A stretch of 64,000 nucleotides of DNA from Coffea arabica. Taxonomy: Eukaryota > Streptophyta > Magnoliopsida > Gentianales > Rubiaceae. The stretch is from contig NC_092323.1 of assembly GCF_036785885.1 (NCBI RefSeq), forward strand, positions 8,750,501-8,814,500. The letters are read 5' to 3'. The notes beneath the pieces were generated by a model. It did no database searches, was not told where the DNA came from, and was given only the letters and a program-made list of their open reading frames with translations. Positions 591-48,365 of this stretch are shown here, piece by piece. Each line of letters opens with the position of its first letter. The stretch's first letter is position 1. A program made the position numbers and the translations under genes.

Positions 591-1025
591 TTTTATTCTA
601 ATACATCACATTGGGTCAATTTACTATGGAACATCAAATTATATGTTTAATTTTTTAAAGTTAAATAATCAGTACAATAAAAAATAAATAATTTTTTTTG
701 AAGAAAAAAATTAATTCAAAGATGACTAATTCATATATATATATATATATCAACTCTTATAATATAAAACTAAAATTGTAAAAATTTAGGGGGGGCCAAT
801 TTTGTTTTACACACATATTTACATATTATGAATTAAAATTTTTAAAACTCATGGCCCCCCTCTGCCCCCCTTGCTCCATCATTGTGTGTGTGACACTGTT
901 TCACTCTTTTTTGGCTGCTTTCTCTCCTTTGCAACCGTGCTTACTCCCTCACCCCACAAATAATGCAAATTTACCCCTTTTTTACATTCTTTTTCCAAAG
1001 CACGTGTAGAAAGTTATTCGGTGCA
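591..1025. other. Intergenic, no gene seen
   Basis: AT-rich sequence with a TA run near 735-750. Short G-rich and C-rich tracts (around 789-797 and 854-870) could pair as an imperfect inverted repeat. No coding region, RNA gene or clear element end was found. Confidence 0.5.
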
Positions 1026-1035
1026 TATTTGTATT

Positions 1036-1225
1036 GTTTTTTTGGTGTAACCCACTGATATTTCAGTCTGTTTTATAATTTGTGACTAATTATGTTCGAA
1101 TCGGATCAGATCCCTTGTAGGAAAACTTTCCCAACACTGTCCTTTCCATTTTCATGGATTTCGAACCTGAAACCTTATGATTAAGAGATCCAAGTCCCTT
1201 TCACTTGCATCAATATGCGTTGATG
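1036..1225 (-). mobile_element. tRNA-derived SINE, minus strand
   Basis: On the minus strand this is a short element with a tRNA-like head, AGTGAAAGGGACTTGG then GGTTTCAGGTTCGAAATCC. The second stretch matches the Pol III B box (about 1157-1167 on the plus strand). A body of about 100 bp follows and ends in CACC plus a short A tract, seen as the T run near 1036-1043. A 10-bp direct repeat, TATTTGTATT, lies at 1026-1035 and 1226-1235 and reads as the target-site duplication. Head, tail and duplication together support a SINE. The family name is not known to me. Confidence 0.72.
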
Positions 1226-1306
1226 TATTTGTATTCATTGTTGTATAGCAGTAATGGTTCCTTGAAAGGCTGGAAAATTATGCATTGTAGTCTGACGTAG
1301 TCAATA

Positions 1307-1624
1307 CTCCCTCCCTTTTTTTATAACTGACGTTTAAGAAATTTGCTCTAGTGTACTTTTATCTGTCATTTTATTATCTCCATACAGCATTAATTACTTT
1401 TTCACAATTTTACCCTTTTATCTCTCTGGTATTAATACACTCCCATGCATTGCTTTTGGCTTAGTAAAACAGCACCATTTAGTACTATAGTAAGAGAAAA
1501 CTTGGGTGAATTGGACAATTAATGAGGGTACAAAAGGAAAGTAGTGTACAGATTTAAGCATTGAAAAACTTTTCTTAATTAGTGTGCAAAACCTTAAACG
1601 TCAGTTATAAAAAAAGGGAGGGAG
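1307..1624. mobile_element. Stowaway-like MITE (Tc1/mariner type)
   Basis: The ends are inverted copies of one another. The left end reads CTCCCTCCCTTTTTTTATAA then CTGACGTTTAAG, and the right end reads the reverse complement and stops in GGGAGGGAG. TA lies on both sides (1305-1306 and 1625-1626), the target duplication expected for Tc1/mariner. CTCCCTCC is the well-known terminal motif of plant Stowaway MITEs. The 318-bp interior has no coding capacity. The terminal repeats are long (about 30 bp) and nearly identical, which suggests a fairly recent insertion. Confidence 0.88.
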
Positions 1625-7875: not shown

Positions 7876-10425
7876 ATGGTGGATGCAGTGGTTTCAGTGT
7901 TCTTGGAGAAGCTTCTTAATGCTTTCCAGGAGGAGAGCCAATATCTGAGCAAGTTTAGAGAGCAATTTGGAAGATTGAAGAATGAGCTGCTACTCATGGA
8001 AAGCTTCCTAAAAGATGCGGATAGGCTCAAGAGGAAAAACCAGATTCTTCGAAGGATAATGACGTGTTTACGTGATCTTATATATGAAGCTGAAGATATA
8101 CTGATAGATTGCCAGGCTATATCAGTTCGCGCAAATGGGGCTTCAAAGTTCGCTAGTTGTTTCCGTCCCTCAAAACTTCCACTTCAATACCGAACGGGGA
8201 AGCGTCTATGTGAGATTAATGAGAAAATCAGGGACATAAAACAAAATATTTCATCCTATCTGGGGGTGCCGCTTTTGAGTGAAACCCGTAGCATGGAGAC
8301 TCATGACCATCTCATGTCCAGATGGAGCTCACCAGTGTATGATCACTCCCAGGTTGTTGGTTTAAAGGATGATACTGAGAAGATGAAGAATTGGATATTG
8401 CAGTCAAATGATGGCATCGTTTCCATTGGAATTGTTGGAATGGGAGGAGTGGGGAAGACTACCATTGCTCAAGAAGTCTTCAATGACAGAGAGATAGAGG
8501 ACAGGTTTGAAAGAAGAATCTGGGTCTCTGTTTCTCAAACTTTTACTGAGGAGCAGATCATGAGAAGCATATTGAGGAGCTTAGGGGATGCATGTGTGGG
8601 CGACAATGAAAGTGAATTATTGACGAAGATAAAGCAGTATCTCTCAGGAAAGAGATATTTGATTGTGATGGATGACGTCTGGAGTTTGGATAATACTTGG
8701 TGGCTTAGAATATTTGGCGGGTTGCCTCAAGGAAATGGAAACTGCGTAATTATTACTACAAGAATTGAGAAAGTTGCTCGGAAGATGGGAGTGAGGGAAT
8801 CAAGGACTCATTGGCCCAAATGCCTCAATGAGGACTATAGTTGGTTACTGTTTCGTAAGATAGCATTTGCCGCAACTGGGGGTGAGTGTCGTCACTCTGA
8901 GTTAGAGGATGTTGGGAAGGAGATTGTTGAGAAGTGCAAAGGGCTTCCATTAGCTATTAAAGCAGTGGGAGGAGTGATGCTGTGCAAACCACCTCATTAT
9001 CATGAATGGAGACGAATCTCAGATCATTTTCGTGAAGAATTAGCTGAAAATGATAACTCTGTGATGGCATCACTGCAATTGAGCTATGATGAACTCCCAC
9101 CCTACTTGAAGTCATGTTTCCTCTGCTTCTCAATCTTTCCAGAGGATTGTGTCATCGATAAAGATCAATTGGTTCATTGGTGGAAGGGTGAGAGTTTCAT
9201 GCCTGTGAGAAACCATAGATTATCAACTGAAGTTGGAGAAGACTGTTTCTCAGAGTTGACAAATCGATGTTTGATAGAGGTGGTTGACAAGGCTTATAAC
9301 GGTCGGATCCAGACTTGCAAAATACATGACATGGTTCGTGACTTGGTGATTAGAATTGCTGAAGATGATGCATTTTCCATTCCATCTGATGCTAACTGCC
9401 GCCATCTTGGTATTAGCAGTGACATGAGTGCACGTAACCTGGCAGCTGATCAAAGGTTGCGAGCACTGCTCACTACAACCAAGATTGGTGAGGTAAACAA
9501 GATTGGTTCAAAATTGGCAAAGAGTTTCTGCAGATGTTGCCATCTGCAGATACTCGATCTTTCCAAATCGATTTTTGCAGCATCGCTTTCAAGTTTGTTG
9601 GATGAAGTAGGAACTCTCCAGCATTTGACCTGTCTGAGCCTAAGCAATACTCATCCTTTAACCCAACTCCCAATTTCACTATCGAAGCTCCAAAAGCTGA
9701 AGATTTTGGATGTCAGTTATTGCCAGAATTTGAACATGCTTCCAAGTTGTATAGTAGCATTTGAAAAGCTCGTGGTGTTGGATGTCAGCAATTGCGGTTC
9801 TCTTGAGTACCTGCCCAAAGGATTAGGGAGGCTTTCCAACCTTGAAGTGTTATTGGGCTTCAAGCCAGCTATGCCAGTCGAATGTGGAGGTTGTCGCATT
9901 GCTGAACTGAAAAGCCTGTCAAGACTGAGAAGAGTAGATTTAAGGCTTACTCATGGTGATGAGATTGGAAATGACGAGGTTGATGCATTAGTAAATCTCC
10001 AGGAACTGCAATTCTTAACACTGAACTTCTTTGATAGTCATGATGATGATCTTTTTTTGAAAATCAACAAACTTCTCCCTCCTCGACAACTGCATGAGCT
10101 GAGTTTTAAATTTTATCCTGGGAAAATAAGTCCAGAGTGGCTGAACCCCAGGTCGCTTCCTATGTTGAGGTACCTGTCCATTGTTTCTGGAAGCCTCGCA
10201 AAATTGAATGATAGCTTCTGGGGCCTTGGAAATATGGTATGGAGAATTGAGGGCTTAAAATTTGAAGCTTTATCAGACTTGAATGAGGAATGGTCAATGA
10301 TGCATCAAGCCATGCCATCCCTGAAAATACTGAATGTGAGCTGGTGTCCTGAGCTGGAGTCTTTCCCAATTGAAGATGCTGGATTTAGAGGAGGGGTTTG
10401 GAAGAAGGAAGAGCAAAGGAGCTAG
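7876..10425 (+). CDS. ZAR1: ZAR1, CC-NBS-LRR immune receptor (RPP13-like protein 4)
   Basis: A single uninterrupted exon encodes 849 residues, against about 852 in Arabidopsis ZAR1, and is alike from end to end. The coiled-coil starts MVDAVVSVFLEKLLN, the MADA-like alpha-1 helix that forms the resistosome funnel, and it keeps Glu11. SSPVYDH.QVVGL opens the NB-ARC domain. The P-loop is GMGGVGKTT (Lys194), RNBS-A is RRIWVSVSQTFTEEQIMRS, kinase-2 is LIVMDDVW (Asp266-Asp267), GLPLA is at 356-360, and the MHD equivalent is Ile483-His484-Asp485. The LRR part runs from about 540 to the end and keeps the C-terminus CPELESF.IED.GFRGGVW. In Arabidopsis ZAR1 works with RLCK-XII pseudokinases (ZED1/RKS1) and forms a pentameric calcium channel at the plasma membrane. 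No such pseudokinase gene is in this window. No break is visible, so the gene looks functional. Confidence 0.96.
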   Translation: MVDAVVSVFLEKLLNAFQEESQYLSKFREQFGRLKNELLLMESFLKDADRLKRKNQILRRIMTCLRDLIYEAEDILIDCQAISVRANGASKFASCFRPSKLPLQYRTGKRLCEINEKIRDIKQNISSYLGVPLLSETRSMETHDHLMSRWSSPVYDHSQVVGLKDDTEKMKNWILQSNDGIVSIGIVGMGGVGKTTIAQEVFNDREIEDRFERRIWVSVSQTFTEEQIMRSILRSLGDACVGDNESELLTKIKQYLSGKRYLIVMDDVWSLDNTWWLRIFGGLPQGNGNCVIITTRIEKVARKMGVRESRTHWPKCLNEDYSWLLFRKIAFAATGGECRHSELEDVGKEIVEKCKGLPLAIKAVGGVMLCKPPHYHEWRRISDHFREELAENDNSVMASLQLSYDELPPYLKSCFLCFSIFPEDCVIDKDQLVHWWKGESFMPVRNHRLSTEVGEDCFSELTNRCLIEVVDKAYNGRIQTCKIHDMVRDLVIRIAEDDAFSIPSDANCRHLGISSDMSARNLAADQRLRALLTTTKIGEVNKIGSKLAKSFCRCCHLQILDLSKSIFAASLSSLLDEVGTLQHLTCLSLSNTHPLTQLPISLSKLQKLKILDVSYCQNLNMLPSCIVAFEKLVVLDVSNCGSLEYLPKGLGRLSNLEVLLGFKPAMPVECGGCRIAELKSLSRLRRVDLRLTHGDEIGNDEVDALVNLQELQFLTLNFFDSHDDDLFLKINKLLPPRQLHELSFKFYPGKISPEWLNPRSLPMLRYLSIVSGSLAKLNDSFWGLGNMVWRIEGLKFEALSDLNEEWSMMHQAMPSLKILNVSWCPELESFPIEDAGFRGGVWKKEEQRS

Positions 10426-20087: not shown

Positions 20088-20159
20088 GTGGCTGTAGTTT
20101 AGTGGTAAGAATTCCACGTTGTGGCCGTGGAGACCTGGGCTCGAATCCCAGCAGCCACA
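20088..20159 (+). tRNA. tRNA-His (GUG anticodon)
   Basis: A complete 72-nt cloverleaf. The acceptor stem GTGGCTG pairs with CAGCCAC (20152-20158) and the discriminator is A. The D arm is TAGTTTAGTGGTAAGA. The anticodon stem CCACG pairs with CGTGG around the loop TTGTGGC, with anticodon GTG at 20121-20123. The T arm is CTGGG CTCGAAT CCCAG. The internal A box (TAGTTTAGTGGT) and B box (GCTCGAATCCC) are intact. There is no intron, and TTTT soon after the gene can act as Pol III terminator. The sequence matches the nuclear plant tRNA-His consensus, and the extra G-1 would be added or templated as usual. It looks functional. Confidence 0.96.
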
Positions 20160-44850: not shown

Positions 44851-45261
44851 GAGATTAAATTTGCCATTGGATATAGAATAAGAATTATCAACCCTTAAAT
44901 TACTTCAAGAGTCTAAATCACTGAATGATGCGACAAGATATAAAAGGATTTGAATAATGGGTACTGTATCCAAGAGGAACTGTAATATTTTCCTTTTTTT
45001 AGCTTATTTGCTTGTTCTTCATAATGAATTTTAATTATTGCATTGTGTTATTTCATTTATGCATAACTTTTTATTATAACAATTAATAACATGATTGATA
45101 TTCATTCCCTCATCATTATTGAAATGCATTATAATTATTCTATAGAGGGTAGTTTAGGTATTACAAAAAGTAAGACAAAATCTGTTTACACTACCTATAC
45201 TTCTAGACCCATGATACTTTTACAGGGAGTATAGACAGAGTCGTGGCTTTCTTTTGCTCTT
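44851..45261. other. Intergenic, no gene seen
   Basis: AT-rich sequence between a hAT element and a SINE. No coding region or repeat signature was found. Confidence 0.5.
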
Positions 45262-45279
45262 GAATTGATTACGTAAATG

Positions 45280-45463
45280 ACCAATAGGGGTTGGTTCGAG
45301 TGGTAAGCAGTTTGGATTAGCTTAAGCATGTTTCGTGTTCGAGTCCTAGTGTACGCAGACACCCCTGTTGAAAGACTCACCCATCATAGCCAGGTGTACG
45401 ACGCAGGTCGGGTCCGGATTAGTCGGGGCAAAGTTCGGATACCGGGCGGTCAATCAAAAAAAA
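45280..45463 (+). mobile_element. Full-length tRNA-derived SINE with 18-bp target duplication
   Basis: A perfect 18-bp direct repeat, GAATTGATTACGTAAATG, flanks the element at 45262-45279 and 45464-45481. The head has a Pol III A box (TGGTTCGAGTGGTAAG) and a B box (GTTCGAGTCC, 45337-45346) at normal spacing. The 3' half reads GGTCGGGTCCGGATTAGTCGG and ends in CAATC plus eight A. At 184 bp with both boxes it looks complete. The GGATTAGTCGG phrase links it to the short copy at 32275. Confidence 0.92.
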
Positions 45464-45539
45464 GAATTGATTACGTAAATGTGCATAGCTTGTCCCACAT
45501 GTTTTTTTTTTCCCCAAATATCCTTGAATAGCCAAACGA

Positions 45540-45695
45540 AATCTTGTACCGTTCCACTCCTTTCAAATTGGTTAATCAATTGGATTAACATTTTTTTTGG
45601 CCGGAAAAAAATTTCTATAGATCGTGCATTTTATCATTGAACTAGTGCAAAGTGGATTAACCAATTTCCCATAGGTCGAGCATAGCACTACTACT
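45540..45695. repeat. Dispersed repeat, copy 2 (partner near 41690-41865)
   Basis: Diverged second copy of the repeat described at 41690. The order of the conserved phrases is kept, but a GGCCGGAAAAAAA stretch and other indels differ. Confidence 0.6.
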
Positions 45696-45941
45696 TGATC
45701 TATAAGACATTCAAAATTTATCTTCCTCTCTCAGAATCCTTCTTCGTCGAGGACATGTAGCGCATTAGTTGAACGCAGATTCCTTAGAATGCATGGGAAC
45801 TTATTCGTTTACGAAATGGGCAATCGAGAGAGAGAGAGAGAGAGAGGCAGGATTATAATTTCTCGAAGGGCCAAGATCGACCAAAGGGTCGTATGGCATT
45901 TTATGCATTGATCAGAATCTCTTCAATATTCGTTGCTTGGT

Positions 45942-45950
45942 TATAAATAG
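45942..45950 (+). promoter_or_regulatory. TATA box of the MIR169 gene
   Basis: TATAAATAG is an almost ideal plant TATA box and lies about 105 bp before the mature miR169 sequence. A Pol II start at about 45975 is expected. A GA microsatellite (45830-45846) lies further upstream. Confidence 0.7.
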
Positions 45951-46034
45951 AGTTTGGGAATGATCAGTTTTTGCAATGCAATGCAATGGGTTGATAGGAA
46001 GGTAAGAGGAAGAGAGGCCTTACATGAAGGTAAA

Positions 46035-46150
46035 GGTCCTCATTTGGTAGCCAAGGATGACTTGCCTGCTCCACCTCAGGGGGTTTCTCTAAGTCCACAA
46101 GTAAACCCTTTGTCGTGGTCGCCAGGAAGTCTCCTTGGCTAGCCTGAGAG
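46035..46150 (+). ncRNA. MIR169: MIR169 precursor hairpin
   Basis: The 5' arm at 46048-46068 is a 21-nt match to the miR169 form that begins UAGCCAAGG and ends CUUGCCUG (the miR169 h-n type in Arabidopsis). The 3' arm at 46123-46141, CAGGAAGTCTCCTTGGCTA, pairs with it throughout except for two single-base bulges. The outer bases GG and CC extend the stem. The loop of about 54 nt is within the plant range. miR169 guides cleavage of NF-YA mRNAs and responds to drought and nutrients. MIR169 genes often occur in clusters, but I saw no second hairpin here. A short open frame over the same stretch (from 45971) is a by-product. Confidence 0.93.
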
Positions 46151-46858
46151 GCTCTTTTCTCTCATGCTAGGTCTTCTTTTCCCCTGCAGCCTCTGCCACC
46201 TCCCAGTCCTTTATGATTTTCTTTTATCTCTTGCAATTATTCAATTTTCCATTAACTCCTTCATCGTCGTGCTTTGCAGTTTGAGTACTTGCGATGATTG
46301 ACAAAGCATTGCAGTTTGAGTATTAACTTTTGTTTATCAGAAGCGTTGAAAAATTTTCATCATAACACCGATATTTTGCATTTCGGTACGTAAAAGTATG
46401 TCTTGCATTGTTTTAGCATCAGCCATCGTCTACTCCTCGGATAAATGTCAGTAAGATGGATCGTCTGTTTCAACATTCGACCAGGTTTTACAATATTCGA
46501 TCCGACAAATTTTTGTTTTTTGGGGGGTGGGAGGGGGAGTAATTTTTGTTGGAGAAAACCTTACAAGCGCACAAATTTTAGTGCCCCTATTCCCTGTTCC
46601 CTAGCATTTAATTTGTAAGCCATGTTTACTAATCCTTCCTTTCTGTCTGTCTTCTTTTATTTACAGATCAATTGTTTTTTTTTAAAAAAAAAAAAAAAAT
46701 CTTTATCAAGAAAACAAAGGTGAAGTTCTTTGAAGTATTCGGAGCAGGACTCCAAACGTAGTAAGGTGCCTAAGATTCTCATGTAATGGCAAAATCCAAT
46801 TAGGTCACGAATGAAATTTAATGCAGGAACGAGGAACGAAACAAAAACCGTTCATGGG
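46151..46858. other. Intergenic: MIR169 3' flank and dehydrin far upstream
   Basis: It includes the likely 3' part of the pri-miRNA, T/A homopolymer tracts near 46675-46700 and a G-rich tract near 46521-46540. No gene was seen. Confidence 0.5.
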
Positions 46859-46865
46859 ACGTGTC
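46859..46865 (+). promoter_or_regulatory. ABRE-type motif (ACGTGTC), distal to the dehydrin gene
   Basis: ACGTGTC matches the ABA-response core ACGTGKC about 850 bp before the dehydrin start codon. Alone it is weak evidence, but it gains weight with the proximal motifs. Confidence 0.4.
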
Positions 46866-47368
46866 ATACAGCAGCACTAAAAGTCTTCAAACAGCTCTCC
46901 GTGCCTTGAATACCCAACATTTTAGCAGCACACTTGGACGATTGTGGGCAGATGGCATATTTCAGCAACACAACTACTTACAAATCCAGAATATATTATC
47001 ATGGAGCAAAATATCAATAATATATTTCTGTATGGGTGTGATCCAATGCCCACCAAGCCACCATGTGTACATTTGCCTCCCAAGGGCCGGGCCCCAAAGA
47101 TTTATGGATATACACTGTTTACATCCAAGCCACGATTGAGGCATTTATGTCCGGATCCCTTTATTTAATCCATCCATTGAACCAAAAATATCCTGCCAAG
47201 GAGGGGAGCCTTCATGAAGCTTTCGTGGGAGCATTATGATGACGATGCGGAATTTTTTTTGTCTCTTAAAGTTCTCATACGCGGTGAAGTGTCACCTTAC
47301 CTAGCTTATCACTCATAAGAAGATCTTTGATTAAAAAGAGCGTTTTCAATTGACCAACCTTATCTACT

Positions 47369-47437
47369 GCCGACAGAGGACACTTGTCACTGTCATGCAC
47401 AGCCACGTAACATCTTGCAAACTGACGCGGTGTCGGT
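47369..47437 (+). promoter_or_regulatory. DRE/ABRE/DRE cluster in the dehydrin promoter
   Basis: Three stress motifs lie within 70 bp: GCCGAC (47369-47374, DRE/CRT core), GCCACGT (47402-47408, reverse complement of the ABRE ACGTGGC) and GTCGGT (47432-47437, reverse complement of ACCGAC, a second DRE core). They are 120-190 bp upstream of the TATA box, where such elements act in known dehydrin genes. Control by ABA, cold and drought is inferred. Confidence 0.7.
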
Positions 47438-47555
47438 ACTGCATGAATTCGGCTTACACCTGGAACGCTGTTTGTGGCTCTTCCTCTGCATGCACCGGCA
47501 AATCCTCATAACTTTACTGATCTTTTTGGTTGTTCCCTTTCTTCTTCAGCTTGCC

Positions 47556-47565
47556 TATATAAAAA
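47556..47565 (+). promoter_or_regulatory. Dehydrin TATA box
   Basis: TATATAAAAA lies about 140 bp before the dehydrin start codon. A transcription start near 47590 and a leader of about 115 nt would follow. Confidence 0.75.
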
Positions 47566-47706: not shown

Positions 47707-48365
47707 ATGGCACAATACGGGGCTGAATATGGCAACCAAAAGAGCCAGTACGATGAGTACGGAAACCCAGTTCGTCAGACAGACGAATATGGTAACCCAG
47801 CCCGCCATGGAGGTACCATGGGTGATTATGGAACCACTGGCACTACTGGAGCCTATGGTGGCACAGCTGGAGCACATGGGACTTATGCAACTGGAACCAC
47901 CGGCACTACCGGTACCGGTGCGTATGCCACCCAGCCTGGCACTGATGTGGGGAAGGAGCACCATGGCCTTGGTGGCATGCTTCATCGCTCTGGTAGCGGT
48001 AGCTCTAGCTCGGTATGCCCTCCTAATTAATCTCGTCTTGCTTAAATTGTACTGAGTTGTAGTAGCATTTAACAAATCTTGACCAGCTTGTGATGACTGG
48101 TAATTAAAAAGTTCTTATCTGTTTTCTTTTTGTTTTTTCGGTTGGGATGCAGTCCGAGGATGATGGGCAAGGCGGGAGGAGGAAGAAGGGGATGAAGGAG
48201 AAGATAAAGGAGAAACTGCCTGGCGGTCACAAGGAGGCTCGACCTGGACAAGAATATTCGAGTGCTACTACAGCTCCTGGATACGGCGGGGAAGGAGAGC
48301 AGCACGAGAAGAAAGGAATTATGGATAAAATCAAGGAGAAATTACCAGGGGGTCACAACAACTGA
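47707..48365 (+). CDS. Dehydrin, Y2SK2 type (LEA group 2)
   Basis: Two exons, 47707-48012 and 48153-48365, encode 172 residues. Two Y segments (YDEYGNP and TDEYGNP) lie near residues 15-32. A Gly/Thr-rich phi stretch follows ([25 protein letters not shown]). The Ser tract of the S segment ([13 protein letters not shown]) is split by the intron, as in other YSK dehydrins. Two K segments follow, [16 protein letters not shown] and the C-terminal [17 protein letters not shown]. The protein is very hydrophilic, without Trp and probably disordered. Dehydrins protect membranes and enzymes during drying, in cytosol and nucleus, in seeds and under ABA. The promoter motifs upstream agree. The ATG at 47707 is the first in frame. 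Confidence 0.96.

Follow-up and report, generated by a model that had tools for sequence, protein, structure and literature searches.

The stretch from 46020 to 46165 of the 64-kb window (the whole stretch of DNA analysed, 64,000 nucleotides) most probably represents a canonical plus-strand MIR169 gene, and we put a probability of about 0.9 on the reading that it would be transcribed, diced, loaded into AGO1 and directed against NF-YA mRNAs in the manner proposed here. miR169 is an old plant miRNA family and NF-YA is its known target. By the sequence tests available, the locus passes as a bona fide MIR169 gene. It is only another instance of a known family, an ordinary gene without surprise, and with it the genome annotation gains one well-placed MIR169 gene. 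In the proposed mechanism, RNA polymerase II would initiate ∼30 bases past a TATA box at 45942, the transcript would form the hairpin 46020-46165, DCL1 would release the 21-nt 5p miR169 together with its star, and AGO1 carrying the 5p would cleave NF-YA mRNAs. We infer these steps of transcription, dicing, AGO1 loading and cleavage at the window locus from what is known of the family. The features of the locus are as follows.

45942-45950, plus strand: TATAAATAG, possible core promoter (from sequence; not significant alone; within a low-divergence stretch, 45800-46249)
46020-46165, plus strand: predicted MIR169 precursor hairpin, a foldback with lower stem (RNA fold, Rfam RF00645)
46048-46068, plus strand: predicted mature miR169, 5p (sequence, table in PMC2292181, NF-YA target-like sites)
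46069-46124, plus strand: upper stem and terminal loop (fold)
46125-46144, plus strand: predicted miR169 star, 3p, 20 nt (pairing in the minimum-energy fold, 2-nt 3′ overhang rule)
46029-46161, minus strand: reverse-strand hairpin matching Rfam MIR169_5 (77.1 bits; fold of –61.9 kcal/mol for 46020-46165)

The plus strand carries the 21-mer TAGCCAAGGATGACTTGCCTG at 46048-46068. This is the single match in the window at up to three mismatches; none of 100 shuffles contained one, and 0 are expected by chance. The same letters, as RNA, are given for Osa-miR169h-m in a table of PMC2292181, and the identity is exact, as the first-pass annotation had supposed when it equated this stretch with a known miR169 isoform. 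Folding of 46020-46165 (146 nt), which that annotation had proposed as a check, yielded a stable stem-loop of –65.3 kcal/mol with a z score of –5.94, and 0 of 200 shuffles folded as well; the shorter interval 46029-46161 folded at –61.4 kcal/mol (z –6.07). The miRNA lies in one arm, with 19 of the 21 bases of the 5p paired. In the minimum-energy fold, the pairing of the 3′ arm runs through 46123-46142 and is interrupted by three one-base bulges and none larger, two of them in the 5p (46058 and 46064) and one in the 3′ arm (46141). The arm had been described as 46123-46141 with two one-base bulges; the pairing and the bulges at 46058 and 46064 hold, and the description has to be extended to 46142 and by the third bulge.

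The position of the star was set by assuming 2-nt 3′ overhangs. With this rule, the minimum-energy fold places a 20-nt star at 46125-46144, which reads GGAAGUCUCCUUGGCUAGCC at the window locus and its allele. The earlier expectation of 46121-46141 is superseded: it corresponds roughly to the stretch opposite the mature sequence, with the overhang shift left out. The predicted duplex stays within the structural rules for plants as set out in a passage of PMC12594335 (at most five mismatches, no asymmetric bulge larger than 3, star of 20-24 nt), its star length being borderline at 20 nt; if 46048 pairs with 46141 instead, the star would be 19 nt long and would miss the rule.

Rfam models match the hairpin on both strands. 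On the plus strand, RF00645 (MIR169_2) matches 46035-46155 with 53.6 bits, barely over its gathering score of 50, and on the minus strand RF00865 (MIR169_5) aligns along its entire length to 46161-46029 and scores 77.1 bits (gathering score 44). The minus strand thus outscores the plus strand, both being above the gathering score, a point absent from the first-pass annotation. Apart from its score, the window hairpin shows no substantial difference from MIR169_2 and shares with it and with the rice miR169h-m isoform the identical 21-nt 5p, the position of this 5p, the hairpin and target-like sites in NF-YA genes of the host genome. Rfam match, fold and exact mature sequence together bear out the MIR169 identity proposed earlier.

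Folding does little to separate the strands: the minus strand reaches –61.9 kcal/mol (z –5.76) for 46020-46165 and –58.4 kcal/mol (z –5.18) for 46029-46161, and the advantage of the plus strand at the window locus is small, 3.4 kcal/mol for the full fold and 1.5 kcal/mol for the arms. The strand call of MIR169_5 carries little weight, because all 14 genome matches listed for this model (five above and nine below the cut-off) run antisense to canonical miR169, a count that describes the orientation of the model relative to the canonical 5p and not the transcribed strand. L051, L053 and L054 are further loci with MIR169_5 opposite canonical miR169. The model is likely built on precursors resembling rice MIR169q, which would be the probable cause of the flipped orientation; according to a passage of PMC3479107, the reverse complement of rice MIR169q contains the miR169h-m sequence.

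When arm pairing was compared in both directions, the canonical direction paired better in 24 of 31 MIR169-like loci (mean gain 6.6 kcal/mol) and the reverse complement in seven, with the reservation that these loci are not independent, because alleles were counted apart. The set comprises 38 sites minus six that are antisense to a listed locus and minus the weak C12:56205057; it was assembled without L030, L033 and L034, which are above the RF00645 cut-off and have more than three mismatches to the canonical 18-mer, and without matches of the RF00645 search whose locus sequence was not extracted. Canonical and reverse-complement arms reach –46.8 and –45.3 kcal/mol in the window, –46.1 and –40.5 in the paralogous copy on contig C17, and –52.1 and –46.0 in that on C18. 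Of the pairs of the window fold that have changed, three of eight in C17 and four of nine in C18 remain paired on the plus strand, as compared with two of eight and three of nine on the minus strand, too few for a decision on the strand; plus-strand pairing is broken at five of the eight changed pairs in C17 and five of the nine in C18, one gap included in each.

For the strand, most weight falls on the target test. The 32 genome matches of PF02045 form eight NF-YA gene pairs, of which one allele each was scored, in ∼3 kb of genomic DNA per gene and not in spliced mRNA. The plus-strand 5p finds sense-strand sites scoring 3.0, 3.5, 3.5, 4.0, 4.0 and 5.0 in six of the eight genes (at a threshold of ≤5) and no site within the ∼3 kb scored in the other two (10.5 and 11.0). 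For the minus-strand 5p, no NF-YA site was found, its best scores of 9.0-12.0 in all eight genes being background. Shuffled guides had medians of 10.5 (plus) and 11.0 (minus) and a lowest score of 7.0 for both; 100 shuffled plus guides reached ≤5 in at most one of the eight genes, and on the antisense strands of the NF-YA loci the plus guide scored 8.5 or higher. Most likely, miR169 from the window would dampen NF-YA transcription factors, and both the plus strand and NF-YA as the likely target, as previously put forward, are upheld. We regard the reverse-strand hairpin as a miscalled strand or, at the very most, an antisense precursor of secondary importance. This is a practical trap, in that automatic annotation following the top-scoring Rfam match would reverse the strand here and so arrive at the wrong guide and wrong targets. 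Pipelines of this kind would also flip other loci at which MIR169_5 outscores MIR169_2. Among titles and abstracts on RF00865/MIR169_5, we found none treating the strand problem, which is not proof of its absence from print.

A TATA box had been reported about 105 bp upstream. TATAAATAG is indeed present, 106 bases ahead of the mature start, and is not significant alone: three copies occur in the 64-kb window on both strands against 1.19 expected, and 14 of 100 shuffles contain at least three. We discarded the TATA box alone as evidence, its copy number not being unusual. As the TATA box of this gene it is plausible, and its spacing fits the rice distances given in part of PMC2670843, 85 bases from start site to mature sequence for miR-169g and 131 for miR-169n.

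The genome searched comprises 1,197,963,845 bases in 131 contigs. We take it to be a haplotype-phased plant assembly, because contigs pair up by matching genes (C13/C14, C17/C18 and others). One copy of the hairpin, C13:6993454-6993599, differs from the window at one of 146 positions (99% identity) and is taken as the syntenic allele; the neighbouring PPR protein has a syntenic copy on C13 that is 94% identical, and its other relatives among the 60 matches listed are 39-48% identical. Divergence between the alleles is 1/146 in the hairpin against 108/2943 (Fisher p 0.062), which is only suggestive of a lower rate there. In 45800-46249, a stretch whose bounds were chosen after inspection, there are two SNPs in 444 aligned bases as compared with 107 in 2645 elsewhere in 44.3-47.7 kb, indels being uncounted, including a 5-base length difference.

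Three other explanations of the locus were weighed. We give hardly any credence to a minus-strand MIR169 gene of the rice MIR169q type, with UAGCCAAGGAGACUUCCUGGC at 46141-46121 as its 5p and with the plus-strand match explained as its star arm in reverse. The full-length MIR169_5 match of 77.1 bits to the reverse complement of the window hairpin and the minus-strand fold speak for it, as does Osa-miR169q itself (UAGCCAAGGAGACUGCCCAUG), for which a table of PMC2292181 gives read counts of 28, 11 and 3 in three libraries of rice. However, the letters of the minus 5p depart from miR169q after base 14, a scan of the minus strand across 46166-47560 gave no TATA[AT]A, and a guide with sites in none of the eight NF-YA genes and a model that lies opposite the canonical strand in all 14 matches listed remove it as the main reading. 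It is also very unlikely that the locus is a silent relic, a correct hairpin that has lost its transcription. MIR169 is multi-copy in this genome, so that one copy could be lost harmlessly, but the exact mature sequence and full pairing are kept on both alleles, and the low number of SNPs in 45800-46249 argues in the same direction.

A reading that overlaps and extends the canonical one has transcription and dicing on both strands: the plus strand would give the miR169h-type miRNA, and the minus strand would give either a second miRNA or a natural antisense transcript with a damping effect on processing. We consider this reading unlikely. Each strand folds, but this is weak evidence, because the reverse complement of a hairpin tends to fold too. 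Precedents exist: passages of PMC3479107 report reverse-complementary MIR169 precursors, with RC-osa-miR169p-1 and q-2 being DCL1-dependent and RC-osa-miR169p-1 enriched in AGO1, and antisense transcripts suppress the processing of miR398 according to part of PMC7582911. These rice precursors resemble the window locus in having a MIR169 hairpin that folds on both strands with a UAGCCAAGGA 5′ end on each 5′ arm. In contrast to them, use of the second strand is hypothetical at the window locus. The RC-osa-miR169p/q products have the same sequence as ordinary miR169 members of rice; in the same passages, the authors state that target cleavage is difficult to assign to one or the other. The absence of an NF-YA site for the minus guide in the eight genes also stands against the reading. 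In its most specific form, which is quite unlikely, the locus would work two ways, with plus-strand miR169h-type guiding against NF-YA and the minus strand supplying a different 21-nt guide, without the base opposite the 46058 bulge, that no longer recognizes NF-YA and could instead act on other targets or damp the sense precursor. Should both strands prove to be in use, the sequence difference between the two guides would make this locus convenient for testing reverse-complementary miRNAs.

Beyond the allele, the exact 18-mer core of the canonical plus-strand miR169 occurs 18 times in the genome (reversed control 0). The nearest paralogue, C17:37475982 and C18:34583946 on the minus strand, has kept the same 21-mer, the lower stem and the 3′ arm.

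L003 (C17) ∼817-1564 and L004 (C18) ∼829-1560, minus strand: C17/C18 paralogue (same 21-mer, conserved arms)

Its best-pairing 3′ stretch begins 644 (C17) or 632 (C18) bases past the mature start as compared with 72 in the window, and the arms are separated by 626 and 614 bases in the two haplotypes and by 54 in the window. The arms still pair when the whole 709-721 nt are folded; neither copy reached an Rfam gathering score (six of the 12 loci submitted had a match). Over the 3 kb compared, similarity to the window ends just outside the arms. Part of the C17 loop insert appears repeat-like, because of the 40 matches listed, 38 are weak and partial, come from elsewhere and fall inside positions 407-517 of the insert (length 541), the remaining two being the insert itself and the C18 copy. 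Dicing of so long a precursor would make a neat test. Mature reads cannot separate the window locus from the C17/C18 loci, because the 21-mer is shared; the star distinguishes the window locus and its allele from C17/C18, whose arm differs. Elsewhere in the genome, a tandem MIR169 cluster lies at C7:8417232-8436153 and C8:7939320-7961272, with at least three copies on C7 and at least five on C8. At C11:61501899-61502008, C11:37769025-37769163 and their C12 alleles, both strands of the MIR169 hairpins exceed the RF00645 cut-off, and the opposite strand carries a second miR169-like 5p that is near rice miR169p as given in a table of PMC2292181.

The first-pass annotation had also linked the locus to a drought-type dehydrin 1.6 kb downstream on the same strand. 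The gene is there, with its ATG at 47707, ∼1.66 kb past the mature start.

∼47707-48012 and 48153-48365, plus strand: dehydrin exons (sequence reading; exon 1 Pfam PF00257, exon 2 genome match C14:8798650-8798856)

A functional tie is not borne out. The dehydrin has a TATA-like element of its own, TATATAAAA at 47556-47564, and the interval 46166-47560 between hairpin and dehydrin contains two ABRE and two DRE when both strands are counted, and all but one of these four motifs lie no more than 200 bases from the dehydrin TATA. A search of both strands of 44948-45947, the last 1 kb up to the MIR169 TATA, yielded neither ABRE (ACGTGG/T) nor DRE (A/GCCGAC). We discarded the idea of a conserved MIR169-dehydrin pair, no second such neighbourhood being present among the matches listed: the 14 dehydrin matches listed form four allele-like pairs (C3/C4, C13/C14, C17/C18, C19/C20), and among the matches listed only the C13/C14 dehydrin has a MIR169 nearby, with no MIR169 match among those listed for C3/C4 and the C17/C18 MIR169 lying ∼6 Mb from the C17/C18 dehydrin. 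Titles and abstracts on MIR169 and dehydrin neighbours included none found to treat the gene pair, which is not proof of its absence from print. The simplest reading is that the two are independent neighbours; of the earlier interpretation, MIR169 identity, strand and likely target are thus retained and the tie to the dehydrin is given up. Elsewhere in the window, the plus strand carries a long open frame for a CNL-type disease resistance protein (Rx_N, NB-ARC, LRR) at 7879-10425 and a tRNA-His (GTG) gene at 20088-20159.
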